This document shows positions 2,297 to 19,089 of a stretch of DNA of 29,821 nucleotides, piece after piece. Positions within the stretch are counted from its first letter, which is position 1; every line of letters starts with the position of its first letter. The translations under genes were made by a program, and so were the position numbers. The notes under the pieces are model-generated. The model was given only the letters and a program-made list of their open reading frames with translations, was not told the DNA's origin and did no database searches. Source of the stretch: a virus; the IMG/VR virus record IMGVR_UViG_3300026253_000005, positions 1-29,821 of that record, one strand, 5' to 3'.

Positions 2297-4618
2297 ATGG
2301 AAGACGAGACTCACTACAAAGATACTGGCGTTGGCCTCTCGGGTAAACCTGTTGAAGGTACACCCGTAGGTGACGGTTCGAACGGACTGCTTCATGTCGC
2401 TTCGGTGGCTCAGATCGAAGCCGCTCAAAAGGACGCGGAAGAAATAGCCGCCCGCGCTATGCAGCAAGACGACCGGCCGATGCTCAAGAATATTGAACGC
2501 TATCTCGGCAACGTCTTCGAAGACTGCCGCGCTTTCAAAGAAGACGAGACCGACACGCAGAAGCTAATGCTCGACTCGCTCAACCGCCGCAACGCCAAAT
2601 ACGATGCTGAGAAGAACGCGAAGATCGCGGCCATCAACTCGAGCGATGTCTTTCTCGGCGTGACCGGCGTCAAGTGCCGCGCCTTTGAATCCTGGGTGCA
2701 TGACATTTACATGAATGCCAAACGCAAGCGGACCTGGGATCTCAAGCCAACCCCGATTGCCACCATCCCACCTGAAGATTCGCGCAATATTACCAAGACG
2801 GTGATGGAAGCCTATGAATATGCCCAGAACCAGGGCGCGGAAATGTCCGAAGTCGATGCCTATCAGATGGCGTCCGATATGCGGGCTGACATTATCAAGG
2901 CCGATTACGAGCTGGCTGGCGAACGCGCCGAGAATATGTCGCGCAAGATTCACGATCAGCTGACCGAAGGCGGTTGGGTCAAGGCCTTCTCTGATTGCAT
3001 CATGGATATTTCCTCCTCCAAAGCCGGCATCCTGAAAGGCCCGGTCGTGCGGCGACGCAAGATCCGCTCCGGCTGGACCGAAGACAAGAACGGCAACTCC
3101 GTGCCCAAGATCGAAATGGCCGAGATCATGACGGTGGAGCGCGTCTCACCGTTGGATTTCTTTCCCGGCCGCGCCAACGAGACCGTCAATGATGGCCCGG
3201 TCTGCGAACGCCTGACCATTTCCAGATCCTCGCTGGTAGAAAACCGCGAAGAGCCCGGCTATATCCAAAAGAACATTGAGCATATAGCCATGCACAGCAC
3301 TTTCCCGACCCAGACGCCATCCACCTTGCAATCAGAGCGAGACTTGGCCGAAGGGCGCGACACGCAGACTCCTTCATCTTCGTCAGGCCCTTCTCTCCCG
3401 GCCATCGAAATCTGGTGCAAGTGTCTGGGTCGGGACCTTATTGATTTTGGCATTATCAAGGACAACGACGGCAAGAAGCTGGACCCGTTGCTTGATTATG
3501 ACATCAACGCTATGACCATTGACGGGCTGATAGTCTACATCACGCTCAACGAAGACGAACTGGGTCGCCGGCCGTATTCCGTTTACGGATATGCCAAGGA
3601 GATCGGGGGATTCTGGTTCATGGGTATTCCTGAGCTGATTACCAGCGAACAGGATATTATTAATGCAGCCGCCCGCTCAATGGTCAACAATCTCGGCATC
3701 GCCTCCGGTCCGCAGGTCATCATCAATGATGTTAACCGCTTCCCGCCCGGTGAGGATATTACCTCGATGCACCCTTGGAAGATCTGGCAGGGCACCAACA
3801 TGGGCAGCTCGAATGCGCCGCTGGTGACCTTCTTCCAGCCGGATTCTCGTTCGGCCGAAATGCTGTCGGTCATCCGCGAAGCAACCCGCATTACGGACAG
3901 CACCCTCGAAATGCCGAGTTACAGCTATGGCAACGACAAGGTGTCTGGAGCCGGCCGCACCGCTTCGGGCTTATCCATGCTGATGGGTTCCTCCAATCGA
4001 GGCCTCAAACGGATCCTGCTGGGCATCGACCGCTATATCTTCCAGACGGTGGTCGAGCGCATGTATGACTGGAACATGAAGCATCTGGAAGACCAGTCGA
4101 TCAAGGGCGATATGAACTTCATCTCGGAAGGCATCGTCTCGCTGATCATGCGTGAGCAGCTGGCCGACCGCCGCATGGGCTTGCTGCAGGCCACCAACAA
4201 CGAATTTGATATGAAGATCCTCGGACTCGACGGCCGCGCCAAGATTCTCGGCGATGCGATCGAGGTGCTCGAATCGGACTATGACGACATTAAGCCGAGC
4301 GAAGAAAAGATTCAGCGACTGATTCAGGAGGAAACGATGCTACAGCAGCAACGGATCCAGAAGAACCAGATCGAGATCGAACGCGAGCAAGCCCTGATCG
4401 AACGCGAAGCCGCTGTCGAAATGGAGAAGATTGATCTCGAACGCCAGAAACTGATGCTCGAAGTGCAGAAAGTGGAACGGGTCGACAAGACCGCCAATCG
4501 CGAACTCGACATCCGGGCCTCCAAGCAGAGCCAGGGCATGATCGAGAAGATCTTTGAAGCCGATGCCGCCAAACAACAAGAGGTCGATCCCAATGGTCCC
4601 CCGCCCAACCAAGCGTGA
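2297..4618 (+). CDS. Portal (head-tail connector) protein, long podovirus-like form
   Basis: This would form the dodecameric ring at the capsid vertex through which DNA is packaged and ejected. It directly follows terL and is 773 aa, close to the long portals of P22- and N4-type podoviruses. The central part has portal-like features: FWFMGIPELITSEQDIINAA, and the block SGAGRTASGLSMLMG near residue 550, which is typical of the loop and helix region of such portals. From about residue 665 to 755 the chain is an extended Glu/Gln/Lys/Arg coiled coil (EIEREQALIEREAAVEMEK), likely a barrel-like extension into the capsid as in P22; that role is inference. A weak AGGA precedes the start. The last 26 bases overlap the next gene. 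Confidence 0.9.
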   Translation: MEDETHYKDTGVGLSGKPVEGTPVGDGSNGLLHVASVAQIEAAQKDAEEIAARAMQQDDRPMLKNIERYLGNVFEDCRAFKEDETDTQKLMLDSLNRRNAKYDAEKNAKIAAINSSDVFLGVTGVKCRAFESWVHDIYMNAKRKRTWDLKPTPIATIPPEDSRNITKTVMEAYEYAQNQGAEMSEVDAYQMASDMRADIIKADYELAGERAENMSRKIHDQLTEGGWVKAFSDCIMDISSSKAGILKGPVVRRRKIRSGWTEDKNGNSVPKIEMAEIMTVERVSPLDFFPGRANETVNDGPVCERLTISRSSLVENREEPGYIQKNIEHIAMHSTFPTQTPSTLQSERDLAEGRDTQTPSSSSGPSLPAIEIWCKCLGRDLIDFGIIKDNDGKKLDPLLDYDINAMTIDGLIVYITLNEDELGRRPYSVYGYAKEIGGFWFMGIPELITSEQDIINAAARSMVNNLGIASGPQVIINDVNRFPPGEDITSMHPWKIWQGTNMGSSNAPLVTFFQPDSRSAEMLSVIREATRITDSTLEMPSYSYGNDKVSGAGRTASGLSMLMGSSNRGLKRILLGIDRYIFQTVVERMYDWNMKHLEDQSIKGDMNFISEGIVSLIMREQLADRRMGLLQATNNEFDMKILGLDGRAKILGDAIEVLESDYDDIKPSEEKIQRLIQEETMLQQQRIQKNQIEIEREQALIEREAAVEMEKIDLERQKLMLEVQKVERVDKTANRELDIRASKQSQGMIEKIFEADAAKQQEVDPNGPPPNQA

Positions 4619-4890: not shown

Positions 4891-5886
4891 ATGGTACCAG
4901 AAGCAGTCAGAAAGCAGGCCGAGGAAGCTGATAAGGCGCTCGATACACTTATCCAAGTACAGGATGAGAGTGCGGAGCAACCCGTCAATCCCGAAACCGC
5001 TGAGGCTATTCAGGCAAACATGGAAACGCAGCCAGGTCGCCAGCCTGCGCAGGACGAAGCTATCCAAGCAGAGTCAACCACGATAGAGGTTGATCCCGCC
5101 CAGGCGCTTCAGAATGAGCTGGATCTGGAAAGGCAGCGGAACCGTACATTGCAGGGAAGAATTGATTCGCAGTTGGCCAAGGCCCACGGCGAGAATCGTG
5201 AACTCAAGACTCAGGTTAAAGACCTTGAAGGGCGAATGGACGAATTGGCGAAAGCCGACCGGCCGCCTGGCTATCTCCGGCATATCACCGAAGAGGAAGC
5301 CGAAGGACTTGGCGATGATGTCTTGGATATCCAGAACCGAATCATCAAGGGCACACTCGAAGAAGCGCTCGAAGATGGTGACCTCAAAGATTATGTGAAT
5401 GACCTGGTGCAGCAAAGCATGGAGGCCCAAGTGGTCGATCGCGCCCCTGCGCCAGTGAATGAAGACCTCTTTTGGCAGTCCGTTGAACGGCACTACCCTG
5501 GAGCGAGACAGATTAATGAGTCCGACCAAAATTGGTTTGGTTTCCTGGGACAACACGACCCTGACAGCGGTTTAAAGAATCGCGATGTTGGTGTGCAGGC
5601 AATTGATACGAGCGACGTTGTTTCGCTGGTGGATCTGCTCAATCGCTATCGTCCGATCCAACAAGACCAACATGTTGTAGAGCCAAAGCCCGTGGCCGTG
5701 AAGCCCGAGCGAGGCGGTGCACAGCAAATCGAAACTAGTCCGGCAAAACCGAGCTTCACCAGAAGCAATGTTGAGCGGTTCTATAACGACGTTGCGCGAA
5801 ACCGCTTCCCCGGGACAAAGGAAGAAGCGACGGCTCTAGAGACTGAAATTATGGAAGCCGCCCAGGAGGGACGCATTACAGAGTAG
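4891..5886 (+). CDS. Scaffold-like capsid assembly protein
   Basis: This is an acidic 331-aa protein directly upstream of the capsid gene, the normal place for a scaffolding protein that nucleates procapsid assembly and is then expelled or degraded. Residues 1-70 are Gln/Glu-rich and probably disordered. Residues 71-122 form a coiled coil (LQNELDLERQRNRTLQGRID). Residues about 125-190 are Asp/Glu-rich. The C-terminal part is Pro/Gln/Lys-rich and ends in a helical segment (FYNDVARNRFPGTKEEATAL), where scaffolds usually bind coat protein. No protease motif is visible. The start follows AAGAGG. The assignment rests on position, charge and coiled coil, not on a recognised family signature. Confidence 0.75.
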   Translation: MVPEAVRKQAEEADKALDTLIQVQDESAEQPVNPETAEAIQANMETQPGRQPAQDEAIQAESTTIEVDPAQALQNELDLERQRNRTLQGRIDSQLAKAHGENRELKTQVKDLEGRMDELAKADRPPGYLRHITEEEAEGLGDDVLDIQNRIIKGTLEEALEDGDLKDYVNDLVQQSMEAQVVDRAPAPVNEDLFWQSVERHYPGARQINESDQNWFGFLGQHDPDSGLKNRDVGVQAIDTSDVVSLVDLLNRYRPIQQDQHVVEPKPVAVKPERGGAQQIETSPAKPSFTRSNVERFYNDVARNRFPGTKEEATALETEIMEAAQEGRITE

Positions 5887-5930: not shown

Positions 5931-6875
5931 ATGGCAAAATATGATTACGCCACCACGTCGCCGAATGCAATGGCTGACTTTAACGGGACCATGAATTACA
6001 TCCCGACGCTGTACGCCGGCAAATTACTGATTAAGTTCTACGAATCGTCCGTGCTGGGTGAAATCACCAACACTGACTACGAAGGCTTGATTCGCGATCA
6101 GGGCGACACCGTCATTATCCGCAGCGTACCGACGCTGACGATCAGTGACCACAGCAAGGGCATGACTCTCAGCAACGAGAAGCCCGCTTCGGTGTCTACC
6201 ATGCTGGAGATCAACAAGGGAAAATACTGGTCCTTCGTGACCGACGACGTTGATGCCAAGCAGACCGACGTAAAGAATTTCGTCGAAGAGTGGACCAAGG
6301 ACGCGGCTTATCAGCTCCGTAATGTGATCGAGCAGTCGGTCCTGCAGTCGATTGGCGATGATTGTCATGCAGGCAATACGGGAGCTACCGCTGGTGTTCA
6401 GAGCGGCTCGTATGACCTCGGCGAGGCCGGCGCGGCGGTCACGCTGAGCAAAGGCACTGTCATCGACACCCTCATTGACTGCGGTACCGTGCTCGATGAG
6501 CAGAACCTGCCCGACGAAGGTCGTTTCTTCCTGGTTCCGCCGGCCATTTGCGGTCTGATCAAGAAGTCCGATCTGGCCGATGCCAGCATTAGCGGCGACA
6601 GCACTTCGATTGCCCGCAACGGCAAAATCGGAATGATCGATCGCTTCACGGTCTTCAAGACCGGTAACCTGCAGCAGGAGGTCCCGACCACCGATGGTGG
6701 CGCTTGGACCTGTTTGTTCGGCACCAAGGTGGCAACTACGTTTGCGACCCAGCTGATCAAGAACAAGGTGCTGGATAACCCGGACGGGTTTGGCATGTTG
6801 CATCGCGGACTGCAAGTCTTCGGCTTCAAGGTTGTAAAACCCGAAGCACTCGGAGTCCTCTACGCTAACATTTAG
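5931..6875 (+). CDS. Major capsid protein (probable HK97 fold)
   Basis: This 314-aa protein has the right size and position (after portal and scaffold) for the shell protein. The N-terminus (NAMADFNGTMNYIPTLYAGK) and the following ITNTDYEGLIRDQGDTVII stretch resemble coat proteins of podovirus and siphovirus families, with an alpha/beta composition consistent with the HK97 fold. The C-terminus ends with the strand-rich VFGFKVVKPEALGVLYANI, as in many coat proteins whose last segment packs in the P-domain. No cleavable propeptide is obvious. The start follows a GGAG 9 nt upstream. A hairpin just after the stop may punctuate the transcript. The fold is inferred, not proved. Confidence 0.85.
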   Translation: MAKYDYATTSPNAMADFNGTMNYIPTLYAGKLLIKFYESSVLGEITNTDYEGLIRDQGDTVIIRSVPTLTISDHSKGMTLSNEKPASVSTMLEINKGKYWSFVTDDVDAKQTDVKNFVEEWTKDAAYQLRNVIEQSVLQSIGDDCHAGNTGATAGVQSGSYDLGEAGAAVTLSKGTVIDTLIDCGTVLDEQNLPDEGRFFLVPPAICGLIKKSDLADASISGDSTSIARNGKIGMIDRFTVFKTGNLQQEVPTTDGGAWTCLFGTKVATTFATQLIKNKVLDNPDGFGMLHRGLQVFGFKVVKPEALGVLYANI

Positions 6876-6960: not shown

Positions 6961-7299
6961 ATGAAGAAAACTCTTATATGCGCCGCCCTCCTGGTCGGCA
7001 TCACTGTGTTGGCAGCAACCGTTACGTCCGGCTTCGGCAAGAAGGTCCTTGCAGACTCTACGCCAACGATCCTGACCGTCGGCAATCGACCCAACGCCCA
7101 TGCCGAATTTCTGCACGTTACCGTCACACGCGGCGAAGTCCGGCTTATGATCAACACGCCGACCGCTGAGTTTGTTTCCACCAATGCCTTGGTAGTTACT
7201 GCTGGTTTCCCACAAACTTTCTGGACCGGTGGGGATATTCGTTTCATTAGCTATGCGACCGAGTCAGGCACCGCTGACGTAATCTTTAACCTTCAGTAG
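6961..7299 (+). CDS. Exported small protein with Sec signal peptide (112 aa)
   Basis: The N-terminus is a clear signal peptide: MKK, then a hydrophobic core TLICAALLVGITVLAATV, with possible AxA-like cleavage near residues 16-19 or after VLA at about 31. The mature part is short and beta-rich (EFLHVTVTRGEVRLMI, TADVIFNL), like a single beta-sandwich module. It opens a run of seven exported products lying between the capsid gene and the fibre genes. A size near 90 residues and an Ig- or decoration-like composition would fit a capsid-decorating protein, except that such proteins are not normally exported. I do not recognise a family. A moderate AGAGG precedes the start. Confidence 0.75.
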   Translation: MKKTLICAALLVGITVLAATVTSGFGKKVLADSTPTILTVGNRPNAHAEFLHVTVTRGEVRLMINTPTAEFVSTNALVVTAGFPQTFWTGGDIRFISYATESGTADVIFNLQ

Positions 7300-7301
7300 C
7301 C

Positions 7302-9545
7302 ATGAACCGGATCGTGCCCATTCTATTGCTGGTGGCGGGAACAGCTCTGGCTGTGCCCCCCAAGAGTGTCATCTTCAAGAAGGCTTTATTTAACCCGCCG
7401 CGTATTGGAATGACCCAGTGGCTAACGGGCGGCACGACGGATGGCCTGACGCTGCCGGATTACATCGGTACCTTCTCGGCTCCGGTCATTGGCGATGTGC
7501 AGTGTTATGACTTTGATGGCGTCTATGACAATATCCGCTCCAGCGAGACGATCAATACAGACCCGATCAAGCAAAACCTTGATATGACGTTTGTCTTTAA
7601 TCCGGCCAACATCACTGGCAACAAGGTGATTGGTGGTCTTGGTAAAGATCCATGGGGTGGGCTCGGGTCTCTGATCTGGTTATCAGGCAGTAATCTTAGA
7701 TTATCTATGGAGGCGGATAATGATAGCAACTCCACCTTCCACATCGTGTCCACCTCTACCAACGTCTCTGCCGGGGTATGGTATACGGTTCGAGTGACCT
7801 ACGATGGAACGACCGCGCAGGTGTGGCTGGGCGATACTCTGGTACTAACCGACAATACAACTTGGTCTGGCGATCTTAAACTTTCTACCACGCAATGGTT
7901 CACAGTGGGCTCGGGGATTGATCACATTCACAATCACACACACTACCCCTTCGCGGGGAAGATCGCCTACGCCTCGATCAAGTATGGCCCGACCTATGTT
8001 TGCCAAGAGGGCTCCGGCGACATCGCCTATGACACCACCAGTGGCGGCAACCACGGTATAATTACGGTAAGTGCAAATGGCCTTGATACGTTCCACAGCA
8101 GCTCTGACGGTATCCCGAGCTGGAACCGCCAGAAGGGCTTTAGCGGGATGGCCTTGCTGGAAGACAATCTGGTCAACACCCGAGGGATCGTGTCGACCTA
8201 CAAGACCACCCAAACGATAGACGTTACGATCGAGGGTGTCTGGGACTCGGATAATGTAACCGCGTCTCTCGATTCGGCTGCAGGCGTGTTTGCGACGGAT
8301 TCTGGTTATTATTCGACAGGCGCTGTTACCATGCGTCGCGCCACCGCCGCCCCTTACGAAGGCCTGCGTCTCTCGATTTTTCCGATTGATCAAGCCCACT
8401 TCTCCGGCATCTATAGCACTCTGCCCGTCTTTGATGATGGCTATCACAAAATACAACTTCGGGTTGAGGGGAATCGAGTGCGGTTGTGGGTGGATGATGT
8501 GCTTGATGTTGATTACACCCATACAAATTTCCCCACCAACGCGACCTATGATTCGAAAAAAATCACTGTCAACTCCGTGAATACCAGCACCGGCAATCAG
8601 GCTTGCAAGGGCAAGCTGGCGCGCATCAAGTATATTGATGATAATTATGAAGCCGAATATCTGGCCATCAACATTGACTATGTAACGGGGCTTTGGCCGC
8701 AACAAGCGGGTGGCAACTTTACAGATCTTCAGTTCCGGCGTCGGGATGCATCAGGCAACATTACCGAAGTGGCCCCCAAAAGCCTGCGCATCCCCGCCCG
8801 TGAGCATGACGAGCTTTTAGGCGCTCTGATAGTTAATCCAGAGTTCGAGAGCTGGACCGATGCCACGACTCCCGCAAACTGGCAGAAAATAGGAATCACC
8901 TCTGAGGATAGCGTATCTCAAGTAGCCGATGGCCTTCGTTTCCAGATAAAGCAAGGTAATGCCGGACGACTCGGTGCCTCTAGTGGGTTCGGCAACATTA
9001 GAATGATCAAGAATCACACCTATCGGTTTCGGGTTGATCTGGTCTCGGTGACTTCAGGCAAGTTGTCTCTGCGGATTGATGGATCAAATCAATTCCTTAA
9101 TGAGGGCGATGTCGATGTTTATGATGACACCTTCACCGCCGCCAATAATGGCACTATGAATATCTGGCGCGGCGATCCCTCGGTGGATACAGACTTCACC
9201 ATTGCCTCCATTCAGGTCTGGGATCTCGGCATCTGCTCACCCTTGTGCGGCACCCCGGATAATGCCAATGCGATCGGCGGACCGATCAGCAGCCCGGCCG
9301 GCTTCTTCGACAACAGTAGCGGCACCAGCACCAGGCAAACCGATACAGCCTTTACGAGCGACCCCTTCTGGTCCTCTGGCGGCGTCTTGATTAACAAGAA
9401 TGCAGCTGACTTTGCCTTGTTGCCTAATACCAGTGCCACCCATAGCTCCTACACTCCGACCGGCCGCCGCATCAAGCATGTCCTGCAATACGACAACACA
9501 CAGGCCAACGATCTGACTGACCTTTACCTGGAGATTATGAAATGA
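7302..9545 (+). CDS. Exported two-LamG adhesin with carbohydrate-binding-like module
   Basis: The 747-aa product starts with a strong signal peptide (MNRIVPILLLVAGTALA, cleavage likely at residue 17). Two concanavalin/LamG-like jelly-roll domains follow at about residues 60-263 and 296-456. Typical marks are VWYTVRVTYDGTTAQVWLGD, the EGSGDIAYDTTSGGNHG turn and LRVEGNRVRLWVDDVLDVDY. Residues about 513-641 form a module like bacterial carbohydrate-binding beta-sandwiches (NPEFESWTDATTPANW; FTAANNGTMNIWRGD). It is closely related to a module in the 1500-aa fibre downstream. LamG domains in phages are usually fibre or decoration parts that bind glycans or host protein. The start is 2 nt after the preceding stop with no clear Shine-Dalgarno site, suggesting coupling. 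The substrate is unknown. Confidence 0.85.
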   Translation: MNRIVPILLLVAGTALAVPPKSVIFKKALFNPPRIGMTQWLTGGTTDGLTLPDYIGTFSAPVIGDVQCYDFDGVYDNIRSSETINTDPIKQNLDMTFVFNPANITGNKVIGGLGKDPWGGLGSLIWLSGSNLRLSMEADNDSNSTFHIVSTSTNVSAGVWYTVRVTYDGTTAQVWLGDTLVLTDNTTWSGDLKLSTTQWFTVGSGIDHIHNHTHYPFAGKIAYASIKYGPTYVCQEGSGDIAYDTTSGGNHGIITVSANGLDTFHSSSDGIPSWNRQKGFSGMALLEDNLVNTRGIVSTYKTTQTIDVTIEGVWDSDNVTASLDSAAGVFATDSGYYSTGAVTMRRATAAPYEGLRLSIFPIDQAHFSGIYSTLPVFDDGYHKIQLRVEGNRVRLWVDDVLDVDYTHTNFPTNATYDSKKITVNSVNTSTGNQACKGKLARIKYIDDNYEAEYLAINIDYVTGLWPQQAGGNFTDLQFRRRDASGNITEVAPKSLRIPAREHDELLGALIVNPEFESWTDATTPANWQKIGITSEDSVSQVADGLRFQIKQGNAGRLGASSGFGNIRMIKNHTYRFRVDLVSVTSGKLSLRIDGSNQFLNEGDVDVYDDTFTAANNGTMNIWRGDPSVDTDFTIASIQVWDLGICSPLCGTPDNANAIGGPISSPAGFFDNSSGTSTRQTDTAFTSDPFWSSGGVLINKNAADFALLPNTSATHSSYTPTGRRIKHVLQYDNTQANDLTDLYLEIMK
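8838..9223 (+). repeat. Carbohydrate-binding-like module, copy 1 (shared with the long fibre)
   Basis: This segment encodes a roughly 129-aa module whose partner copy lies at 17680-18072. Blocks are nearly identical in DNA, for example the 32 bases beginning CCAGAGTTCGAGAGCTGGAC and the stretch around TCGGTGACTTC/GGCAAGTTGTCTCTGCG. Other parts have diverged, so this looks like a dispersed domain duplication followed by divergence or partial gene conversion. Confidence 0.85.
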
Positions 9546-10003
9546 GCAAATGGATCGCCTTTATCATGCTGATTGCCACCAGTTCATTTGGGCAGGCCGC
9601 CTACGATGGTCGCTTCGAAGCGGGTCGCCACGCCAACGGTGCGCTGTACTGGTGGATCGAATGCCCGGTTGCTGTGCTGACCAACGAGATTCCGGTTGAA
9701 GCCAAGTGGGCCACCCGCACCGAACCAGCGCCCGACGGCAGCACCAACACGGTTCAGGTCGCCAAGACCCTCGATGAATATGTGCTGAAGAAAGATCTCA
9801 GCCTGGACGGTACCACCGTCATGATCTTGCTAGCCGCGATGGAACGCCCGACGGTGCGCAACCGGCCGGTCAATGAAGCCGACCTGACGGCCTGGGAATA
9901 CTACCTGACCCCCTTCGGCTACGCTCAGACCAACTGGTTCACCACGCCCGTCTGGCGCAGCAAGGTCGCCTCACCAGCATATTTAGAAGGGATAACGCAA
10001 TGA
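9542..10003 (+). CDS. Exported hypothetical protein with signal peptide (153 aa)
   Basis: Its ATG overlaps the stop of the adhesin gene in ATGA, and GGAG lies 7 nt upstream. Residues 1-20 form a signal peptide (MSKWIAFIMLIATSSFGQAA, cleavage near QA/AY). The mature protein is about 133 aa with several Trp and Tyr (GALYWWIE, TAWEYYLTPFGYAQTNWFTT) and a central acidic helix (KTLDEYVLKKDLSLDGTTVM). The VAKTLDEYVLKKD phrase resembles the peptide that links shaft repeats in some phage fibres, but this is weak. The tight coupling to the adhesin suggests a joint role. No family is recognised. Confidence 0.75.
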   Translation: MSKWIAFIMLIATSSFGQAAYDGRFEAGRHANGALYWWIECPVAVLTNEIPVEAKWATRTEPAPDGSTNTVQVAKTLDEYVLKKDLSLDGTTVMILLAAMERPTVRNRPVNEADLTAWEYYLTPFGYAQTNWFTTPVWRSKVASPAYLEGITQ

Positions 10004-10341
10004 GCCAGTATTCTTATTCACAGACCATGTTCGAGGATAAGCTCCTTCCATCCGGCGAGACGGCCGAATCTGCCATCATCGATGTCAATGCCATCCGTCC
10101 GCTGGGACACTTTGCTTCCCAGATCAAGGTGACCGGCAGCGGTTCAGTAACGATCGAGCTGTACCTTTCAATCAACGGCACCGACTTCGCCCTCTACGAT
10201 ACGCTGTGGGAAGATCAGGCCTTCACAGTCTCTAAGATCCGCAATCATTCTTTTGCGGTCTGCACCAAATTTAAGGTCAAGGCAACCGAGACTAGCGGAG
10301 CCCAGAATGCCACCGTTTCGCTTTGGATCGGGGTCCAATAA
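10000..10341 (+). CDS. Small beta-sandwich protein, possible decoration or fibre-associated (113 aa)
   Basis: The ATG overlaps the preceding stop (ATGA) and follows GAAGGG. Unlike its neighbours the product has no signal peptide. The sequence is strand-rich with alternating hydrophobic residues (SQIKVTGSGSVTIELYLSIN, then TVSLWIGV at the end), like a small beta-sandwich with an NGTDFALYD turn. Similar 110-aa proteins are found among phage structural genes, possibly decorating capsid or tail. It sits between two exported products in a coupled operon, so it could also be a cytoplasmic partner. The function is inferred from fold type only. Confidence 0.7.
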   Translation: MSQYSYSQTMFEDKLLPSGETAESAIIDVNAIRPLGHFASQIKVTGSGSVTIELYLSINGTDFALYDTLWEDQAFTVSKIRNHSFAVCTKFKVKATETSGAQNATVSLWIGVQ

Positions 10342-11195
10342 TGAAGATCGCGGATGCAGCCATCGTCTCTTTGCTCTTGTTCAGTAGCTTAATGCCCGTA
10401 CAGGCCCAGTGGGGCACGGTTAAGGTCAAAGGAAACGTAGAGGATGGCAATATAGCAGTCTGGACCCAAAGCGGTCAGCTGAAGGATTCTGGCATCAAGG
10501 CTGACACCATCGCTGCCAAGTATCCAGTCTTTAACGTTCCTCTGGATGGCGGTTCCTACACTGAGGTGGAGCTAAAGTGTTCTACCAACAACTTTGCCCC
10601 AACTCACTACCATTGGACAGGCGCAGGGGTGTTTGATCTCGTCAGAGTAGCTGACCTGAATGGGCGATCTCGTTGGGCCTATAATGAGAGCGGGCCGGGC
10701 GATGGTGCTTGGGTTGAATGGAACGGCACGACTTGGGTTTACACCATGCACTCCAACGGGACTATCCAGTGGCAGTTTGAAAACGTCAGCGGCTACTTTC
10801 CGCAAAGATCATTTCAGTCTATCGACGGCATTGACGTAAGCGCTCGGGGCAGCATCGACTATTATTATGACTCGTTCGTGATCCCACCAGCGGGGCACGC
10901 TGCCGAATCCTTTTACGACTACAATGCCCGGCTGTACTACGCCCGTACCGGGGGGATTATGCCGTCGCGCTCGCATCAACTACTGACCGGCGTCCTGTCC
11001 TCCATTTCCAGCACGGTCAAGTTTGTGACGATCTGGCCAGACGTGGATGCCTTCCCGTGGATGACCCCGGACAACCCCAATCTTACTTGGTCCTTTAGCC
11101 GTCGCCATCCAGTGACCGGGGCCGAATCGAATAGCCAAAGTGAAGAGGTGCTGTGGCACCCGATTGAGCCGATCTGGAAATCATACCGTAAATAG
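10341..11195 (+). CDS. Exported fibre-like protein (284 aa)
   Basis: The start at 10341 shares its A with the stop of the upstream gene (TAATG). Residues 1-22 are a signal peptide ending MPVQA/Q. Immediately after it, residues 33-58 carry the phrase GNIAVWTQSGQLKDSGIKAD, typical of the N-terminal or shaft part of phage tail fibres, where a ...DGQLKDSGI... linker is common. The rest is rich in Tyr, Trp and Gly (IDYYYDSFVIPP, FYDYNARLYYARTGG) and resembles a beta-rich tip. A fibre-type sequence behind a secretion signal is unusual, because fibres are normally assembled in the cytoplasm. I see no chaperone domain or enzyme motif. Confidence 0.8.
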   Translation: MKIADAAIVSLLLFSSLMPVQAQWGTVKVKGNVEDGNIAVWTQSGQLKDSGIKADTIAAKYPVFNVPLDGGSYTEVELKCSTNNFAPTHYHWTGAGVFDLVRVADLNGRSRWAYNESGPGDGAWVEWNGTTWVYTMHSNGTIQWQFENVSGYFPQRSFQSIDGIDVSARGSIDYYYDSFVIPPAGHAAESFYDYNARLYYARTGGIMPSRSHQLLTGVLSSISSTVKFVTIWPDVDAFPWMTPDNPNLTWSFSRRHPVTGAESNSQSEEVLWHPIEPIWKSYRK

Positions 11196-11205
11196 GAGAC
11201 AGAGA

Positions 11206-11721
11206 ATGAAGAAAACAATAACCCTACTGGCCGCACTACTTGTTGTGGGAATGACGCAGGCCGAAACCGTCGGTGAAACCTTTCGCGCCTTGATGGCCGC
11301 TGAATCGTATGCCGAGGCCCAAGTTGTGGCCGATGCCAACGGACTGACCGCTGCTTCTTTCCGCGCCCGCTGGGAGCAGGACGAAAGCGCCGCGAATGCG
11401 TTTGCTGAAGTCCTGTTGAACGAGGAAGTCACGCCGCACTATTGCTCTCTGATCGCTGCTTACATGAATAGCAACCGCTACTTCCTGAACCCAACTGAAG
11501 TGCAAGCGACTTGGTTGCTGAAAGGGCTATCCGCAGCGAAAGGGGCTCCGACAGCCAAGGCGCGCTCGGCACAAATGTTCACAAGAGGCTGCCGCAAATA
11601 CTACACCGCCGAACAGTTGCGGGTGATCTATCGGGATCTGGAATACCGCTACAAGCCGGTCTTCACCACCTCCGCCCCCGCCGGCAAATGGACGCTTTAC
11701 GTCACCTCCCTCACTGACTAG
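11206..11721 (+). CDS. Exported helical protein with signal peptide (171 aa)
   Basis: The ATG at 11206 follows TAGGAGACAGAGA. A classical signal peptide (MKKTITLLAALLVVGMTQA, cleavage before ETV) leads into an alpha-helical, charged mature domain (FRALMAAESYAEAQVVADAN; VLLNEEVTPHYCSLIAAYMN) with two Cys, which could be oxidised outside the cytoplasm. It has no lysozyme or amidase motif, so it is not a recognisable endolysin. The gene is 9 nt before the next exported gene. The function is unknown. Confidence 0.75.
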   Translation: MKKTITLLAALLVVGMTQAETVGETFRALMAAESYAEAQVVADANGLTAASFRARWEQDESAANAFAEVLLNEEVTPHYCSLIAAYMNSNRYFLNPTEVQATWLLKGLSAAKGAPTAKARSAQMFTRGCRKYYTAEQLRVIYRDLEYRYKPVFTTSAPAGKWTLYVTSLTD

Positions 11722-11730
11722 GAGATTGCC

Positions 11731-12099
11731 ATGTTGAAACTCATTCCTATGATCCTTGCCCTGACAGCCCTTCAGGCGGTCGCAGAGTCCTCCGAGACGA
11801 TTGTCGCCTACAAGACCCTCTCGATCTACGACGGACAGCAGGAGTCTGCCCAGGTCCATCTGACCCGCCGCATGGCCCACATCCAGAAGATCATCCTCGC
11901 CAACGATGCATTGAAGCGCAGTTCCTATGTGGGACAAGAAATGTTTGGGATCCACAAGCTGTTCAACCAGGCGAAATATGTGGAGGCCGCAATGGCGCTG
12001 GACGAAACCGAACGGCGGCTCCGACAGTATAAGCTGTGGATCGAATCCGATACCACGATCCATCTAAGTATCGAGGACGTAGTACCCGCAACCAACTAG
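11731..12099 (+). CDS. Exported helical protein with signal peptide (122 aa)
   Basis: AGGAG lies 7 nt before the ATG. Residues 1-18 form a signal peptide (MLKLIPMILALTALQAVA, cleavage before ESS). The mature part is a charged helical protein of about 104 residues (MFGIHKLFNQAKYVEAAMAL; DETERRLRQYKLWIES), possibly a helical hairpin or coiled coil. Periplasmic coiled coils occur in spanins, but here there is no membrane anchor after cleavage. It lies just upstream of a membrane protein and a lipoprotein, so an envelope role is plausible. No family is recognised. Confidence 0.75.
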   Translation: MLKLIPMILALTALQAVAESSETIVAYKTLSIYDGQQESAQVHLTRRMAHIQKIILANDALKRSSYVGQEMFGIHKLFNQAKYVEAAMALDETERRLRQYKLWIESDTTIHLSIEDVVPATN

Positions 12100-12110
12100 C
12101 AGAGGTAGCC

Positions 12111-12386
12111 ATGAACGAAAGACAATACGGCGAATTAATTATACGAATGGATGTCAAGCTGAAGGATATCCATCGCTGGTGCTACGGCAACGGGGTGACA
12201 GGCGCGGCTGAACGGCTGACCGTCCTCGAACAAGATGTGTCGCATATCACCCGCGCCCGCCACTGGCCCAATTATGTCTCGGCCCTGTGCTGCATCGCGG
12301 CGGTTGTTATGTCCATCCACTATGGGAATATCCAAATAGAGCAGACCCGCGACATGATTGCGGCAGAGCTACAGTCGAATGACTAG
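12111..12386 (+). CDS. Single-pass membrane protein, XhlA/holin-partner-like (91 aa)
   Basis: Residues 1-50 are charged and helical (RMDVKLKDIHRW; AERLTVLEQDVSHITRAR), followed by one membrane helix at about 54-72 (YVSALCCIAAVVMSIHYG) and a short hydrophilic tail. This order, a coiled-coil-like N-terminus and then a transmembrane helix preceded by Arg/His-Trp, is like XhlA/haemolysin-type phage membrane proteins encoded beside holins. Length also fits. The 3' end overlaps the lipoprotein gene by 8 nt. A lysis role is likely but not proved, since no endolysin is visible in the window. Confidence 0.7.
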   Translation: MNERQYGELIIRMDVKLKDIHRWCYGNGVTGAAERLTVLEQDVSHITRARHWPNYVSALCCIAAVVMSIHYGNIQIEQTRDMIAAELQSND

Positions 12387-12630
12387 ACTGGTCCCCATCC
12401 TATTACTGCTCTGCCTGACCGGCTGTGCGACCCGCTTTGAGACGATGACATGGCTGGGTACGAGTCCTGACGAACCGATCAAGCGCACGGTGGTGAAGCA
12501 TTCGTGGTGGCTGGGGCTGCCGGCTCTGGCCCCGATGGAAGTAACCTTGAGCGACGGCGACTTTACCATCGAAACCAAAGCGATCGGGCTTCCCTCGCTC
12601 GACGTAGGAACCCTCTTCAGGGACGACTAA
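12379..12630 (+). CDS. Small lipoprotein (83 aa), possible outer spanin-type component
   Basis: The N-terminus MTRLVPILLLLCLTGCATRF is a lipoprotein signal with the lipobox L13-T14-G15-C16; Cys16 would be lipidated. The mature part is about 68 aa, with no Pro-rich Rz1-type region. It carries a GLPALAPMEVTL segment and ends in LFRDD. Its start lies inside the end of the upstream membrane-protein gene, an arrangement recalling overlapping lysis genes. It could be an outer-membrane spanin-like protein or a surface or superinfection-exclusion lipoprotein (short lipoproteins do this in several phages). The sequence alone does not decide. Confidence 0.8.
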   Translation: MTRLVPILLLLCLTGCATRFETMTWLGTSPDEPIKRTVVKHSWWLGLPALAPMEVTLSDGDFTIETKAIGLPSLDVGTLFRDD

Positions 12631-13654: not shown

Positions 13655-14587
13655 ATGCCGATCAAAGCAAGCAACCTGGTCAGACTCATTCGTGGGATGA
13701 TCATTGATAAAGAAGATGGCACTGCCCCGCTCAAGTTTACCGAGCGGGAAGTGGTCGATGCGATCAACGTAGCGAAGCATGACTTGTTCGCACGTCGGCC
13801 GGATGCTTTCTCTGTATCGGCATTAACCCTTACCGAGCCATCCAACATCAAGAGCGCCCGTATCAGCCTTTCGTTCCTGTACGGCGATACGACGGTCAAC
13901 TTTAGCCGCCCGATGTCTAATCTCAGCTCATCATTATCCAGCATTGGAAGCATCGAAATGGACCTGAATGCGGATGATGCAAACGGCACCGTCCTTTATA
14001 TGGGTCTCGAGGACAACACGGACTACACCAGTATCTGCATCGAGATGGGTCGATTGGTGGCCTATGTGGTCAGCAGTGCCGCAGCAGAGACCGTAAAGGT
14101 TACAGTCGATTCGAGGTTTGCCGCCACCGGCTGGTCAACCATCAGCCTGGCCCTTAGCGGCGGAACGCTTACACTTTCCGATGGACGAGGCGGGTCCGGC
14201 TCAGAGGAGTATAGTGGAGATCTGATTTCAAGTGCTTCGACGCCCAACCTGGGTTACTCCAGTATAGCAGGTGCCACCCGGTATTTCGGGGGCGCTATCG
14301 CTAATTTCAAAATCAAGGACACGATTGGCGATGGGCTGGTCTCAATTGCCTTCAATGAAGGTGTGGGTTCCCTGGTGCTGGATACGGTTACCGGCGAAAC
14401 GGCCAATGTCTATTACGGGCCTTCAGCTGAGGTCTGGAACCAAGATGACACCATCGATGCCTCCCCCTGGGCCGAGTATCCGCTGACCCTGATGGCGACT
14501 TCGATCCTGCTGGCCCAGCAATCAAAGGATGCGTACTACCGCAAGGCGGCCGACCTGAACTTCAATAAATACTTAGGGAGCATTTAA
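13655..14587 (+). CDS. Head-tail adaptor-like protein apparently split by a LamG-like domain (310 aa)
   Basis: AAGGAG precedes the ATG at 13655. Residues 1-64 resemble the N-terminal part of podovirus adaptor proteins (LVRLIRGMIIDKEDG...KFTEREVVDAINVAKHDLF, ARRPDAF). The last 45 residues resemble the C-terminal helix of the same class (YPLTLMATSILLAQQSKDAY, then YRKAADLNFNKYL). Between them, residues about 65-258 form a strand-rich domain with LamG features (ICIEMGRLVAYVV, WSTISLALSGGTLTLSD, FNEGVGSLVLDTVTGE). An insertion of a glycan-binding-type domain in an adaptor is unusual. The alternative is a fibre-anchoring protein with two helical caps. The TAATG junction couples it to the 1500-aa fibre gene downstream. 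Confidence 0.7.
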   Translation: MPIKASNLVRLIRGMIIDKEDGTAPLKFTEREVVDAINVAKHDLFARRPDAFSVSALTLTEPSNIKSARISLSFLYGDTTVNFSRPMSNLSSSLSSIGSIEMDLNADDANGTVLYMGLEDNTDYTSICIEMGRLVAYVVSSAAAETVKVTVDSRFAATGWSTISLALSGGTLTLSDGRGGSGSEEYSGDLISSASTPNLGYSSIAGATRYFGGAIANFKIKDTIGDGLVSIAFNEGVGSLVLDTVTGETANVYYGPSAEVWNQDDTIDASPWAEYPLTLMATSILLAQQSKDAYYRKAADLNFNKYLGSI

Positions 14588-17500
14588 TGGCTTACGAAAA
14601 CGCAAAGCGCATTCTGCGGAATGCCGAGATGCGAATCGCGCAGAGCGCCGAGGGCATCTACGACGAAGATATCGTGATCGGCTTCTGGGAAAACATTGAA
14701 GCCCGTTATATCGATGAATGCATCCGTTGGATGAACGAAGAGGGCAACCGGGTTGTGACCGGTCCTTCGAGCTTCTCCGATGTCGAGTTTACCGACGACC
14801 TGTATCATACCCATGCCTACTATTCCGAAGAGAACCAGCGGCTGTACCGGCTGTTCGTGCGCAATCCGATTATCTCCGACGCCCACGGGCTGGAAACGAC
14901 CAAGTGGAAGATTGCCAGCGGCCAGACCTACACCAATGGACAAAGCACACTGTCCTTGGCGATGTATAATGTCAGTCCGGAACATGCGCTGGCCCTGCAG
15001 ACAGCTCCGCTGGAAGAAATCTATACCGATGAAATCTACCTGCTGACCGGTGTCTTGCTGGATGGCGAATGGACCAGCCGGGCCCGCAAAGCGACGGTCT
15101 CCGAGAAGTCGGGTCTGTATACGATTCACTGGGCGCTGACCCGCTCGCTATCCAACGAGTTCGGTTTTATATACAGGGATGGTCTCTCGGTAATCACCGA
15201 GCTCTCAGTCGTTGACGCCTCCGAAACCCTACTGGAGGAGTTCCTCGACAAGACCTATCTAGATTCTGAAGGTAACTGGTACCATTCCGCTAACGGAACG
15301 ACCTACACCAAGCTCAATGGTAATGATGTAACGGGCGAGGCGGTCGCCTTTCCTGCCGCAGGCGCTTACAAGATTTCTGAATCAATTCCGGGCCGGCTGA
15401 TTAAAGCCAGCTCTCGTTTTGATGAACGCGAAAAGAACTGGAACCTGCAGCTCGAAGTGACCCATCGGTTATCGATCGAATCAGGATTCTTTTACAAGAG
15501 CGGCAATAACGAAACAACGATGCGGATCGTCAAGAGGGATTGCTCTCTAGAGGAGAAGGACCGTTTCTTTAACCACTACTGGTTCGATTCGAGCGGCAAC
15601 TGGTACGAGGAGGATCCTAACGATCTTGGCTTTTATAACAGAGTAAGCGGCAATGCAGTAGCGCCTAATGTTTCCATACCTGCTGATGCCGAGAAACTAA
15701 CTGTGCACGTTCCGGGTCGGATGGTGCAGGTTAAGACGGAGATCGATGCCAAGAGGCGCTCCTCGGGCGGAACTTGGGAAATTGAAGCCTATATCGTATT
15801 TAGCTCAAGCGACGGCACGCTGTCGCGCTTGGACGGCAATACCCGCATCGAAGTAGCGTCCAGCAAGGACAAGACACTTTACACAGAGAAGGGCTCCGGG
15901 CTTACCGAGACGGAATTGACCACCATTCGCAGCTACTATGATGGCCCCGCCGAAAGAGGCACACTTCAGCAACTAGAGGTGAAGCGCAACGACAACGGGA
16001 CCTTTGATTTTGTCGGCACCACTTCGACGAGAGATTCCGATGGCATATTGTCGCGCTTGGACGGCAATGATCGCCTTGAAGTAGCAACCAGTAAAGATCA
16101 GACACTCTACACCGAGAAAGGCTTCGGCTTAGACGAAGCGGAGCTGACGACCATCCGCTCCTACTACGAGGCCGCCGCTCCGGCCGGCACCATTCAGCAA
16201 CTGGAGGTGAGTCGTAATGAGGATGGCACCTTTGATTTCGTGGGTACAGTTGCCACCCGAAACTCCGATGATACGTTGACACGTTCCGGCACCAACGGCC
16301 ACATCGAAGTGGCATCGAGCAAAGACAGAACGGTCTACACCGAGAAAGGTTTTGGTTTAACCGAAGCGGAGCTAGAAACCTTCCGCGCCTACTATGAGAC
16401 CGCCGCTCCAGTCGGCACGCTCCAGCAGTTTGAAGTCCAGCGCAACGAAGACGGCACCTTTGATTTTGTCGGCACGGTTTCGACGAGGGGTTCCGACGGT
16501 ACGTTGTCTCGCTTGGATGGCAATACCCGCATTCAGGTGGCATCGAGCAAGGACAAGACACTTTACATCGAAAAGGGTTTCGGCTTAGACGAGGGGGAGC
16601 TAACAACCCTTCGCGCCTTCTATGACGGCCCGGCCCAAGCAGGCACACTCCAGCAACTGGAAGTCAAACGTAACGACGACGGGACCTTCGATTTTGTAGG
16701 TACGGTTTCGACCCGCAACTCCGACGAGACGCTGACACGTTCGAGCACCAATGGTCGCCTCGAAGTGGGGGCCAGCAAAGACACAACGGTCTATACCGAG
16801 AAGGGCTTTGGCTTAGACGAGGGGGAGTTACAAACCTTCCGCGATTTCTACGACGATCCGGCCCAGGTAGGCACGCTCCAGCAGTTGGAGGTGAGCCGTA
16901 ATGAGGACGGTACTTTCGACTTTGTAGGCACCGTTTCAACGAGGGGTTACGATGGCACATTGTCGCGTTTGGATGGTAATGATCGTATCCAAGTGGCATC
17001 CGGCAAGGATAAGACAACGTATACCGAAAAGGGGTTTGGGGTAACCGAGACGGAACTGACCACTATCCGCGACCTCTACGACGCCCCCGCTGAAAGAGGC
17101 ACCATTCAGCAACTAGAGGTGCGGCGCAACGAAGACGGAACCTTTGACTTTGTGGGAACGGTTTCGACGAGAGATTCTGACCAGACGCTGACACGGATGG
17201 ACCTCACCATCGGCGGCAGCGAAATAGCGTCCAGCAGGGACAAGACGGTCTATACCGAGAAAGGCTTTGGTTTAGACGAAGCGGAACTGGCCGCTATTCG
17301 TACCTTCTACGGCGCCACGGCCGTTGAAGGCGTGACCCAGCAGTTTGAAGTCCGGCGTAACGAGGACGGAACCTTCGATTTTGTTGGCACAAGAAGCACA
17401 AGAAACGCCAACTATACGCTGTCGCGTATGTCTGGTAACAGCCGAATTCAAGTGGCGACCAGTAAGAATAATACGCTCTACACCGAGAAAGGTTTTGGAG

Positions 17501-19089
17501 TGCCGGAGACATCGCTAACGGCGATTCGTAACCTCTACGATGATCCGGCCCCAGCCGGCACGCTCCAACAACTAGAAGTCGAACGCAATGAAGACGGTAC
17601 TTTCGATTTTATGGGTACCACTTCGACGAGAGATTCCGATGGTACGCTGTCGCGTTTAAACCCCACCTTGGTAGGCGATCCAGAGTTCGAGAGCTGGACC
17701 GATGCCACGACGCCGGCGAACTGGAGTAAAAACAGCTTCGCTGGTAATGACAGCGTAACTGAGGTTGCTAATGGAATTCGCTTTCAGATTGAACAAGGCA
17801 ATAATGGCCAGTTGAAAGCACGATCCGACTTCGGCGAAGGAAATATTGAACTAATCGCCGGGCATGAATATAAGTACCGCGCTGATCTGGCCTCGGTGAC
17901 TTCGGGCAAGTTGTCTCTGCGAATCAACGGGAGTGGACAGTTCCTTAATGAAAGCGTTGCGGGTGTTTATGAAGGCACCTTCACCGCCGCCTATAGTGGC
18001 GCTTTAACCATCTGGCGCGGTGACAGCGCCGCCGCTACGGACCTCACCATTGCCTCGGTTCAAGTCTGGGATATTGTCAATACCCGCATTCAAGTGGCAT
18101 CGAGCAAAAACAGGACAACGTATACCGAGAAAGGCTTTGGGGTGTCGGAAGAGGAACTGGATATAATCCGCGCCTTCTACGATGATCCGGCCCCGGCAGG
18201 CACCTTCCGCAAGCTGGAAGTGGACCTTAATGAAGATGGCACCTTTGATTTTGTCGGCATAGTGACTTCGGTAGCTGGCTTCGCTCACACTCTGACGCTG
18301 GGGTTGAAAAAGTTTTATATTGGCCGAGGCATGGAGAAGCCCGCCACCAGTGATCCCTCCGCCGATACCGCCCTTTATCACATCCTGTCCATTCCGAACG
18401 ACCGCAAGGTTTCCGGCCGGGTGCGGCCCGATGAGAACGACACATGGGCCTGGGACATTGAGGAACAGTTGCCGGTGGAGGTGGCAGGCGGCGGCACAAA
18501 TTCCGGCGATTCGCTGGTCACGTTTGGCCTGCAAGACCGTGAAACGGTGCAGTTGTGGGAATACCGGGGCCAGACCGCTTTACCCAATGGAGGGAGTTCC
18601 GATCTGGGGGCGTTCGCGTCGGACGGTAAGAGCGTTACCGTGGTGCGCTACAGCAACATTGGTTTGGACGAGGCTTCGCTGACCTATCGCTGGACCAAGA
18701 TCGAGACCACCTACAGTGCGCCGACTGGCCTTTTTTACAACGGCGGCAAGGCCATCAGGGAAGACGACAGCCGCATTATGTGGTCAAATGGCTCCCATCA
18801 AGCCTACGGGAGTTTCAGCTCTTATCGCGCCTTTACGCTGGATCGCCATCGGACAGTGCGGAGCCTGCAATCGCTTGAGTTTTTCGTGCGCCATCCAGAG
18901 AACAGCGACATCGCCGAGCACACCGCAATCGGCATCGCGACATATGCTGATGTTGAGCAACGCATCGTGAAGCTCGGCGAATATTTGTATGCCCTCATCC
19001 AAACGACCGTCACGAAGGAAACTTGGGCATCCGGCTCCATCAATAGTTTCGCGGTGAGTGGTCTGAATAATAATCAAGCGAGCCTATGA
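14587..19089 (+). CDS. Giant repeat-containing tail fibre or stalk protein (1500 aa)
   Basis: Residues 1-170 are a mixed N-terminal domain, probably the attachment part. Residues about 170-407 hold two divergent, longer versions of a beta-unit (GNWYHSANGTTY; GNWYEEDPNDLG; IPGRLIKA; VPGRMVQV). Residues 408-1230 carry nine tandem units of 76 aa with core phrases YTEKGFGL..EL, GTLQQLEV and NEDGTFDFVGT. A 139-aa carbohydrate-binding-like module interrupts the ninth unit (residues 1026-1164). Residues about 1232-1500 form a C-terminal domain with Trp/Tyr-rich strands. There is no signal peptide. Regular strand repeats of this kind suit an extended stalk that carries a receptor-binding head. Its start overlaps the adaptor stop, consistent with attachment at the connector. 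The family is unrecognised. Confidence 0.8.
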   Translation: MAYENAKRILRNAEMRIAQSAEGIYDEDIVIGFWENIEARYIDECIRWMNEEGNRVVTGPSSFSDVEFTDDLYHTHAYYSEENQRLYRLFVRNPIISDAHGLETTKWKIASGQTYTNGQSTLSLAMYNVSPEHALALQTAPLEEIYTDEIYLLTGVLLDGEWTSRARKATVSEKSGLYTIHWALTRSLSNEFGFIYRDGLSVITELSVVDASETLLEEFLDKTYLDSEGNWYHSANGTTYTKLNGNDVTGEAVAFPAAGAYKISESIPGRLIKASSRFDEREKNWNLQLEVTHRLSIESGFFYKSGNNETTMRIVKRDCSLEEKDRFFNHYWFDSSGNWYEEDPNDLGFYNRVSGNAVAPNVSIPADAEKLTVHVPGRMVQVKTEIDAKRRSSGGTWEIEAYIVFSSSDGTLSRLDGNTRIEVASSKDKTLYTEKGSGLTETELTTIRSYYDGPAERGTLQQLEVKRNDNGTFDFVGTTSTRDSDGILSRLDGNDRLEVATSKDQTLYTEKGFGLDEAELTTIRSYYEAAAPAGTIQQLEVSRNEDGTFDFVGTVATRNSDDTLTRSGTNGHIEVASSKDRTVYTEKGFGLTEAELETFRAYYETAAPVGTLQQFEVQRNEDGTFDFVGTVSTRGSDGTLSRLDGNTRIQVASSKDKTLYIEKGFGLDEGELTTLRAFYDGPAQAGTLQQLEVKRNDDGTFDFVGTVSTRNSDETLTRSSTNGRLEVGASKDTTVYTEKGFGLDEGELQTFRDFYDDPAQVGTLQQLEVSRNEDGTFDFVGTVSTRGYDGTLSRLDGNDRIQVASGKDKTTYTEKGFGVTETELTTIRDLYDAPAERGTIQQLEVRRNEDGTFDFVGTVSTRDSDQTLTRMDLTIGGSEIASSRDKTVYTEKGFGLDEAELAAIRTFYGATAVEGVTQQFEVRRNEDGTFDFVGTRSTRNANYTLSRMSGNSRIQVATSKNNTLYTEKGFGVPETSLTAIRNLYDDPAPAGTLQQLEVERNEDGTFDFMGTTSTRDSDGTLSRLNPTLVGDPEFESWTDATTPANWSKNSFAGNDSVTEVANGIRFQIEQGNNGQLKARSDFGEGNIELIAGHEYKYRADLASVTSGKLSLRINGSGQFLNESVAGVYEGTFTAAYSGALTIWRGDSAAATDLTIASVQVWDIVNTRIQVASSKNRTTYTEKGFGVSEEELDIIRAFYDDPAPAGTFRKLEVDLNEDGTFDFVGIVTSVAGFAHTLTLGLKKFYIGRGMEKPATSDPSADTALYHILSIPNDRKVSGRVRPDENDTWAWDIEEQLPVEVAGGGTNSGDSLVTFGLQDRETVQLWEYRGQTALPNGGSSDLGAFASDGKSVTVVRYSNIGLDEASLTYRWTKIETTYSAPTGLFYNGGKAIREDDSRIMWSNGSHQAYGSFSSYRAFTLDRHRTVRSLQSLEFFVRHPENSDIAEHTAIGIATYADVEQRIVKLGEYLYALIQTTVTKETWASGSINSFAVSGLNNNQASL
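15808..18276 (+). repeat. Nine tandem 228-bp coding repeats
   Basis: Unit boundaries by the SDGTLSR/TRSTNG phrase: 15808, 16036, 16264, 16492, 16720, 16948, 17176 (this unit is 231 bp), 17407, and 17635 (unit nine, split by an insert). Each unit is 76 codons. Two subtypes alternate at units 2-6: TLSRLDGN (units 2, 4, 6) and TLTRS.TNG (units 3, 5). This indicates expansion partly by two-unit steps. Units stay in frame and are conserved at protein level but diverged in DNA. Confidence 0.9.
17662..18078 (+). repeat. Carbohydrate-binding-like module inserted in repeat nine (copy 2)
   Basis: The 139-codon insert lies between SDGTLSRLN and NTRIQVASSK, which are contiguous in the other units. The core 17680-18072 matches 8838-9223 in the exported adhesin, with NPEFESW/DPEFESWTDATTPANW, SVTSGKLSLRI.GS.QFLNE and FTAA..G...IWRGD. 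The insertion is precise and keeps the frame. Confidence 0.9.

Follow-up and report, generated by a model that had tools for sequence, protein, structure and literature searches.

The window analysed here is one entire uncultured-virus record of 29,821 bases. The terminase is encoded at 722-2263, and it shows 36-42% identity to the terminases of Pasteurella phage Pmp11, Burkholderia phage BcepC6B and Cronobacter phage Ss1. Further along the record lie the following genes, with a block of small exported-looking proteins in the interval between capsid and fibre:

2297-4618: probable portal protein, a role taken from gene order and architecture
4891-5886: probable scaffold, a role likewise taken from gene order and architecture
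5931-6875: major capsid protein, by a match to PHROG 267
14587-19089, plus strand: fibre-like virion protein of 1500 aa, with a conserved N-terminal part of 300 aa, nine 76-aa units and a C-terminal region

Position and architecture point to a fibre role and a virion location for the last of these products. Its N-terminal part gave no PHROG match and was not identified as Dit, MTP or NPS, and a comparison of the N-terminus with PDB sequences returned chance matches only. The fibre was absent from the phage collection searched, and a pattern search with its repeats gave no relatives. A GH3_C Pfam match to the fibre was rejected, as no single stretch passes alone and the match sits in the repeat array.

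The nine 76-aa units run from 15811 onwards. They are spaced at 228 nt, with one step of 231 nt, and the last spacing rises to 642 nt because unit 9 carries an insert. The parts of the array are:

15811-17637, plus strand: fibre units 1-8, uninterrupted, the turn of unit 7 being one residue longer
17638-17655, plus strand: left part of unit 9, DGTLSR, after which comes a Leu codon that belongs both to the unit and to the insert junction
17656-18075, plus strand: inserted segment of 420 nt (about 140 codons), which keeps the frame and stands in place of the Asp-Gly turn of unit 9
17677-18072, plus strand: module core, fibre copy, 132 aa
18076-18267, plus strand: right part of unit 9

The eight uninterrupted units read DGTLSRLDGN-TRIEVASSKDKTLYTEKGFG..., and in unit 9 about 140 foreign residues separate DGTLSRL from NTRIQVASSK. 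Written across both junctions (slashes), unit 9 reads ...GATGGTACGCTGTCGCGTTTA / AACCCCACC...GATATTGTC / AATACCCGCATTCAAGTGGC.... The left flank carries on from unit 8 as the other units do, and the right flank equals unit 4 (AATACCCGCATTCAGGTGGC) with one mismatch over 20 nt. The DNA lost at the site consists of the Asp-Gly codons only, and the frame is kept. An earlier note on this DNA had proposed that a module splits phrases contiguous in the other repeats without breaking the frame, and this is what is found; the bounds given there, 17662-18078, are right to within one or two codons, the left edge at 17656 being itself uncertain by one codon. As for the array, the units at 15811-17637 largely alternate between two types, SRLDGN and TRSGTNG-like, which suggests duplication as 152-aa pairs. 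The longer turn of unit 7 (MDLTIGGSE) is located at the same place as the insertion site of unit 9.

Relatives were gathered by searches with the terminase and the fibre N-terminus. The first ~300 residues of the fibre are common to six related records (G003, G006, G007, G008, G017 and G018; 36-45% identity). The middles of these fibres differ greatly, and the total lengths are about 540-550 aa in G006, G007 and G008, 1531 aa in G018, 2246 aa in G017 and 2507 aa in G003. The last unit can be recognised by the FYIG...DPSAD domain after it, and in G003 and G017 the orthologous last unit is found without the insert. The insertion site is empty, therefore, in the eight sibling units and in two relatives, and a whole domain sits in a loop of the putative virion protein that its orthologues leave unoccupied. 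Profile searches found no copy of the module in the related records. Searches of IMG/VR, GTDB contigs, phages and plasmids, including a degenerate motif search of the viral contigs, likewise turned up no third copy; the matches to Streptococcus satellite phages from the phage search (E 0.3-6) were rejected as chance.

A second copy of the module is, nevertheless, present in the same genome:

7302-9545, plus strand: exported-looking adhesin of 747 aa, its signal-peptide-like N-terminus read by eye
8835-9224, plus strand: module core, adhesin copy, 130 aa

In the adhesin, a LamG-like domain recognised by Pfam (about residues 120-222) is followed by a second jelly-roll-like region and then by the twin module, whose core is a little longer than the 8838-9223 first described. 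Of 130 aligned residues, the twins have 84 in common (65%, E 1e-53). Their DNA is 69.7% identical, with a dN of 0.28 and a dS of about 0.94, and the middle third is saturated at synonymous sites. A blastp comparison of the two whole proteins at E<=0.01 gave a single match (adhesin 481-642, fibre 1015-1163). As the module is the only significant match between fibre and adhesin, and its insertion site is empty elsewhere, the proposed domain shuffling between a fibre and an exported protein is supported. The pair also has both hallmarks of phage domain mosaicism, that is, a homologous fragment common to two proteins and remainders that are unrelated. An assembly artefact joining two metagenome loci comes to mind with this uncultured-virus record; it is most improbable, as the copies are only 70% identical and share no block longer than 34 nt, and as both junctions are in frame.

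The insertion of whole domains is not confined to the fibre of this record. The protein encoded just upstream is built in the same manner, and another domain is found in the fibres of two relatives:

13655-14587, plus strand: adaptor-like protein, its role taken from gene order and architecture, with a LamG-like domain between two conserved parts
about 13853-14449, plus strand: LamG-like insert of ~200 aa in the adaptor-like protein
L031:14326-14649 and L055:7575-7892: copies of a ~105-aa domain in G017 and G018

The site in the adaptor-like protein is empty in G003, G017 and G018, where both conserved parts are adjacent and the proteins measure 115-125 aa. An insert is also present in G006, G007 and G008, and it is LamG-like by Pfam in the one member tested. 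It was also observed that the adaptor-like homologue of G006 (L034:9434-10468, minus strand) has its own diverged LamG insert. The ~105-aa domain (LTITGSASSATGVYKLNPTLSRYER...) is different from the module; in both G017 and G018 it breaks up a fibre repeat, and its two copies are 70% identical. At the matching place, G003 has a longer segment. Its position is the third repeat in the G017 fibre and the first in that of G018. Hopping between repeat numbers was considered for this offset and set aside, since the neighbouring repeats also align; a change in repeat number is probably the simpler explanation. The adaptor inserts and the ~105-aa domain taken together indicate that this phage group is generally in the habit of taking up whole domains in the loops of its virion-type proteins. 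The neighbouring LamG insertion suggests that such loops are general landing sites for attachment modules in this uncultured group.

The age of the twins can be approached through the codons that they share. The identical residues are encoded by the same codon in 53 of 84 cases, while 34.1 are expected from the codon usage of the phage. The excess means that synonymous sites are not fully randomised, and thus the common ancestor is not very old. It is unevenly spread: 12 same-codon pairs against 7.0 expected in codons 0-15, 9 against 9.5 (chance level) in codons 16-60, 14 against 7.7 in codons 61-91, and 18 against 9.9 in codons 92-129. The longest block of identical DNA lies at the start of the alignment:

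8836-8869 and 17678-17711, plus strand: 34-nt block identical between the twins in the DNA alignment

The near-identical blocks amid diverged stretches that were described earlier are, therefore, real at the DNA level. By shuffling of codon columns, the 34-nt run has p=0.0014 and the overall clustering of identity has p=0.0003. Such blocks would be expected under ongoing gene conversion, in which they are recently copied between the two loci and fibre and adhesin act as mutually templating receptor-binding cassettes. The same-codon use, at chance in codons 16-60 and well above it on both sides, agrees with this. However, the patchiness of synonymous choice alone gives only p=0.12 for the best segment (corrected for segment choice) and p=0.13 for the longest run, and the flanking blocks retain synonymous differences, so that no patch looks fresh except possibly the 34-nt one. 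Moreover, the conserved DNA blocks are the protein-conserved ones, and protein selection explains part of the pattern. Since the identical blocks fall on protein-conserved stretches, gene conversion is possible rather than demonstrated on these alignments, and as an account of the pair it is unlikely. Of the earlier suggestion that the twins are ‘convertible’, the clustering of DNA blocks stands as suggestive, and the synonymous codons taken alone do not bear it out.

A somewhat better, though still doubtful, alternative is that two related modules were acquired independently from outside, with no exchange within this genome. The 65% protein identity and the saturated central third are in line with it, and the independent arrival of domains, LamG among them, is clear in this phage group. 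In addition, the GC3 of both modules (0.55-0.57) is below that of the flanking coding sequence (0.61-0.73). Against this, no donor or third relative was found in the collections searched, and the shared 34-nt exact block with the same-codon excess argues for a fairly close common source.

The repeat array provides a yardstick for the age of the module. The date obtained in this way is a relative one, and NG86 estimates become rough close to saturation. Pairs of fibre units have a dS of 0.92-3.4 (median 1.75), with 11 of 36 pairs saturated. The dS of the twins, about 0.94, is near the bottom of this range, much like that of the closest unit pair. Their same-codon rate is 0.61, against a mean of 0.49 for the unit pairs. 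By these two measures, most of the repeat array had probably diverged before the module spread. The shuffling had been called ‘recent’, which holds in this relative sense, close as the twins are to the closest unit pairs; in an absolute sense it is not supported, with dS at about 0.94 and the centre saturated.

What kind of module was inserted is seen less directly. No Pfam family was found up to E 1 for either copy, no relevant family was found in NCBIfam, a sequence search of the PDB gave chance matches only, and the matches among PHROGs were weak (E about 0.02). AlphaFold, run on a two-row alignment, predicted an all-beta module at low confidence (pLDDT 49). The PDB neighbours found for this low-confidence model by Foldseek are mostly CBM4, CBM16 and similar jelly rolls (best E 7e-3), with the CBM4/CBM16-type entries 3p6b, 2zey and 4qpw among the best. 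VIA-align gave a Z of 6.8, with an rmsd of 3.0-3.1 over 105-106 residues, for the CBM4-type entries 1gu3 and 1ulo, and a Z below 8 may mean merely a common arrangement. Receptor-binding domains of unrelated proteins score as well as CBMs against the model; it thus favours a jelly-roll type and gives no firm indication of the ligand. Unlike the CBM4/16-type structures, the module matches no sequence family, its identity to them is only about 9-19%, and no ligand residues are assigned in it. It looks like a CBM4/16-type jelly roll and is not filed as a member of a CBM family. Accordingly, the earlier label ‘carbohydrate-binding-like’ agrees with the neighbours of the low-confidence model and finds no counterpart in Pfam or NCBIfam. 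A model of units 8-9 with the insert was set aside, being too poor (pLDDT 44) to place the module on the shaft.

The copies differ at 13 of 51 residues in the predicted strands and at 33 of 79 outside them, the strands being those of the low-confidence model. Divergence of the surface loops, to which ligands may bind, would give such a pattern. It had been proposed that both products recognise the same ligand. This does not follow, as 35% of the residues differ, mostly outside the predicted strands.

The nearest known parallel is offered by lactococcal siphophages, in which CBMs occur as ‘evolved’ Dit, MTP extensions and neck passage structures (PMC6669499, PMC9692632). Some of the CBM-like modules of lactococcal phages have been shown to bind the host (PMC6669499). 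The likeness lies in compact beta-sandwich CBM-like modules that one phage carries on several different virion proteins, either inserted in their loops or attached to them (PMC6669499, PMC9692632). The differences are that the carriers there are siphophage Dit, major tail and neck proteins, whereas here the carrier is one unit of a tandem-repeat fibre; that the terminase here resembles those of phages such as BcepC6B; and that the two copies here share DNA blocks, with one partner that looks Sec-exported. It may be argued that the module acts in the fibre as a structural spacer or a folding element and has no binding role, as the aromatic positions conserved between the copies are largely core-like on sequence inspection. 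This is quite unlikely, given that only one of nine units carries the module, that the other copy is in a LamG-containing exported-looking protein, and that the lactococcal phages offer a precedent for decoration (PMC6669499, PMC9692632).

The reading that we prefer, with a probability of roughly 0.72, is that a CBM-type attachment module was inserted in the fibre after the array had formed, with a homologous copy in the adhesin. The insert, which sits in frame at the turn of a single fibre unit, would be a self-contained, all-beta, CBM-type jelly roll of about 132 aa. The second copy lies at the C-terminal side of the LamG-containing exported-looking protein of the same phage. Both copies would go back to one ancestor, through duplication or through a second acquisition from a close source, after array formation. 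They would then have diverged, the best-conserved stretches being held perhaps by function or by occasional recombination. The fibre units may be a beta scaffold in which whole domains are tolerated at the turns, and the module would thus project sideways from the shaft. Displayed in this manner, it may contribute to adsorption through weak or auxiliary, low-affinity contact with a surface or glycan, beside primary receptor binding, in the manner of the CBM decorations of lactococcal phages (PMC6669499, PMC9692632). The adhesin copy may do likewise on whatever particle or surface the adhesin occupies.

A bolder proposal is that the secreted adhesin, carrying the binding module of the fibre, occupies the surface ligand of the virion fibre and masks receptors against superinfection or the loss of progeny to debris, with recombination keeping the specificities matched. 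It is improbable as matters stand. Should the exported and fibre copies prove to have one ligand in common, the masking of receptors by a phage protein released from the cell could be tested directly.

The module pair is a well-resolved example of known phage domain mosaicism (PMC10684548) combined with CBM-type decoration, and as such a fairly ordinary re-use of a module. As in the cases of Smug et al. (2023, PMC10684548), a fragment is common to two otherwise unrelated proteins in a receptor-binding context; here, in contrast, both proteins are in one genome and the fragment is nested in a tandem repeat. The less usual feature is this nesting inside one unit of the array, combined with the presence of the module in an exported-looking product of the same genome as well. 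The pair provides a clean case of domain insertion into a tandem-repeat fibre, dated by its neighbours; the site is empty in relatives, and the genome has a homologous copy elsewhere. Tandem repeats of the BACON domain in crAssphage likewise make up a repetitive array in a phage protein, and the array is reported to be an evolutionary hotspot (PMC6949934). There, BACON is itself the repeat, whereas here the CBM-like module interrupts different beta repeats.

The exported-looking block between capsid and fibre deserves a mention of its own. At 6961-12630, around seven plus-strand ORFs, mostly consecutive, have signal-peptide-like or lipobox N-termini when read by eye; they start at 6961, 7302, 9542, about 10341, about 11203, 11731 and about 12376. 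The corresponding stretch of G003, G006, G017 and G018, read in the same way, has at most one such ORF each.
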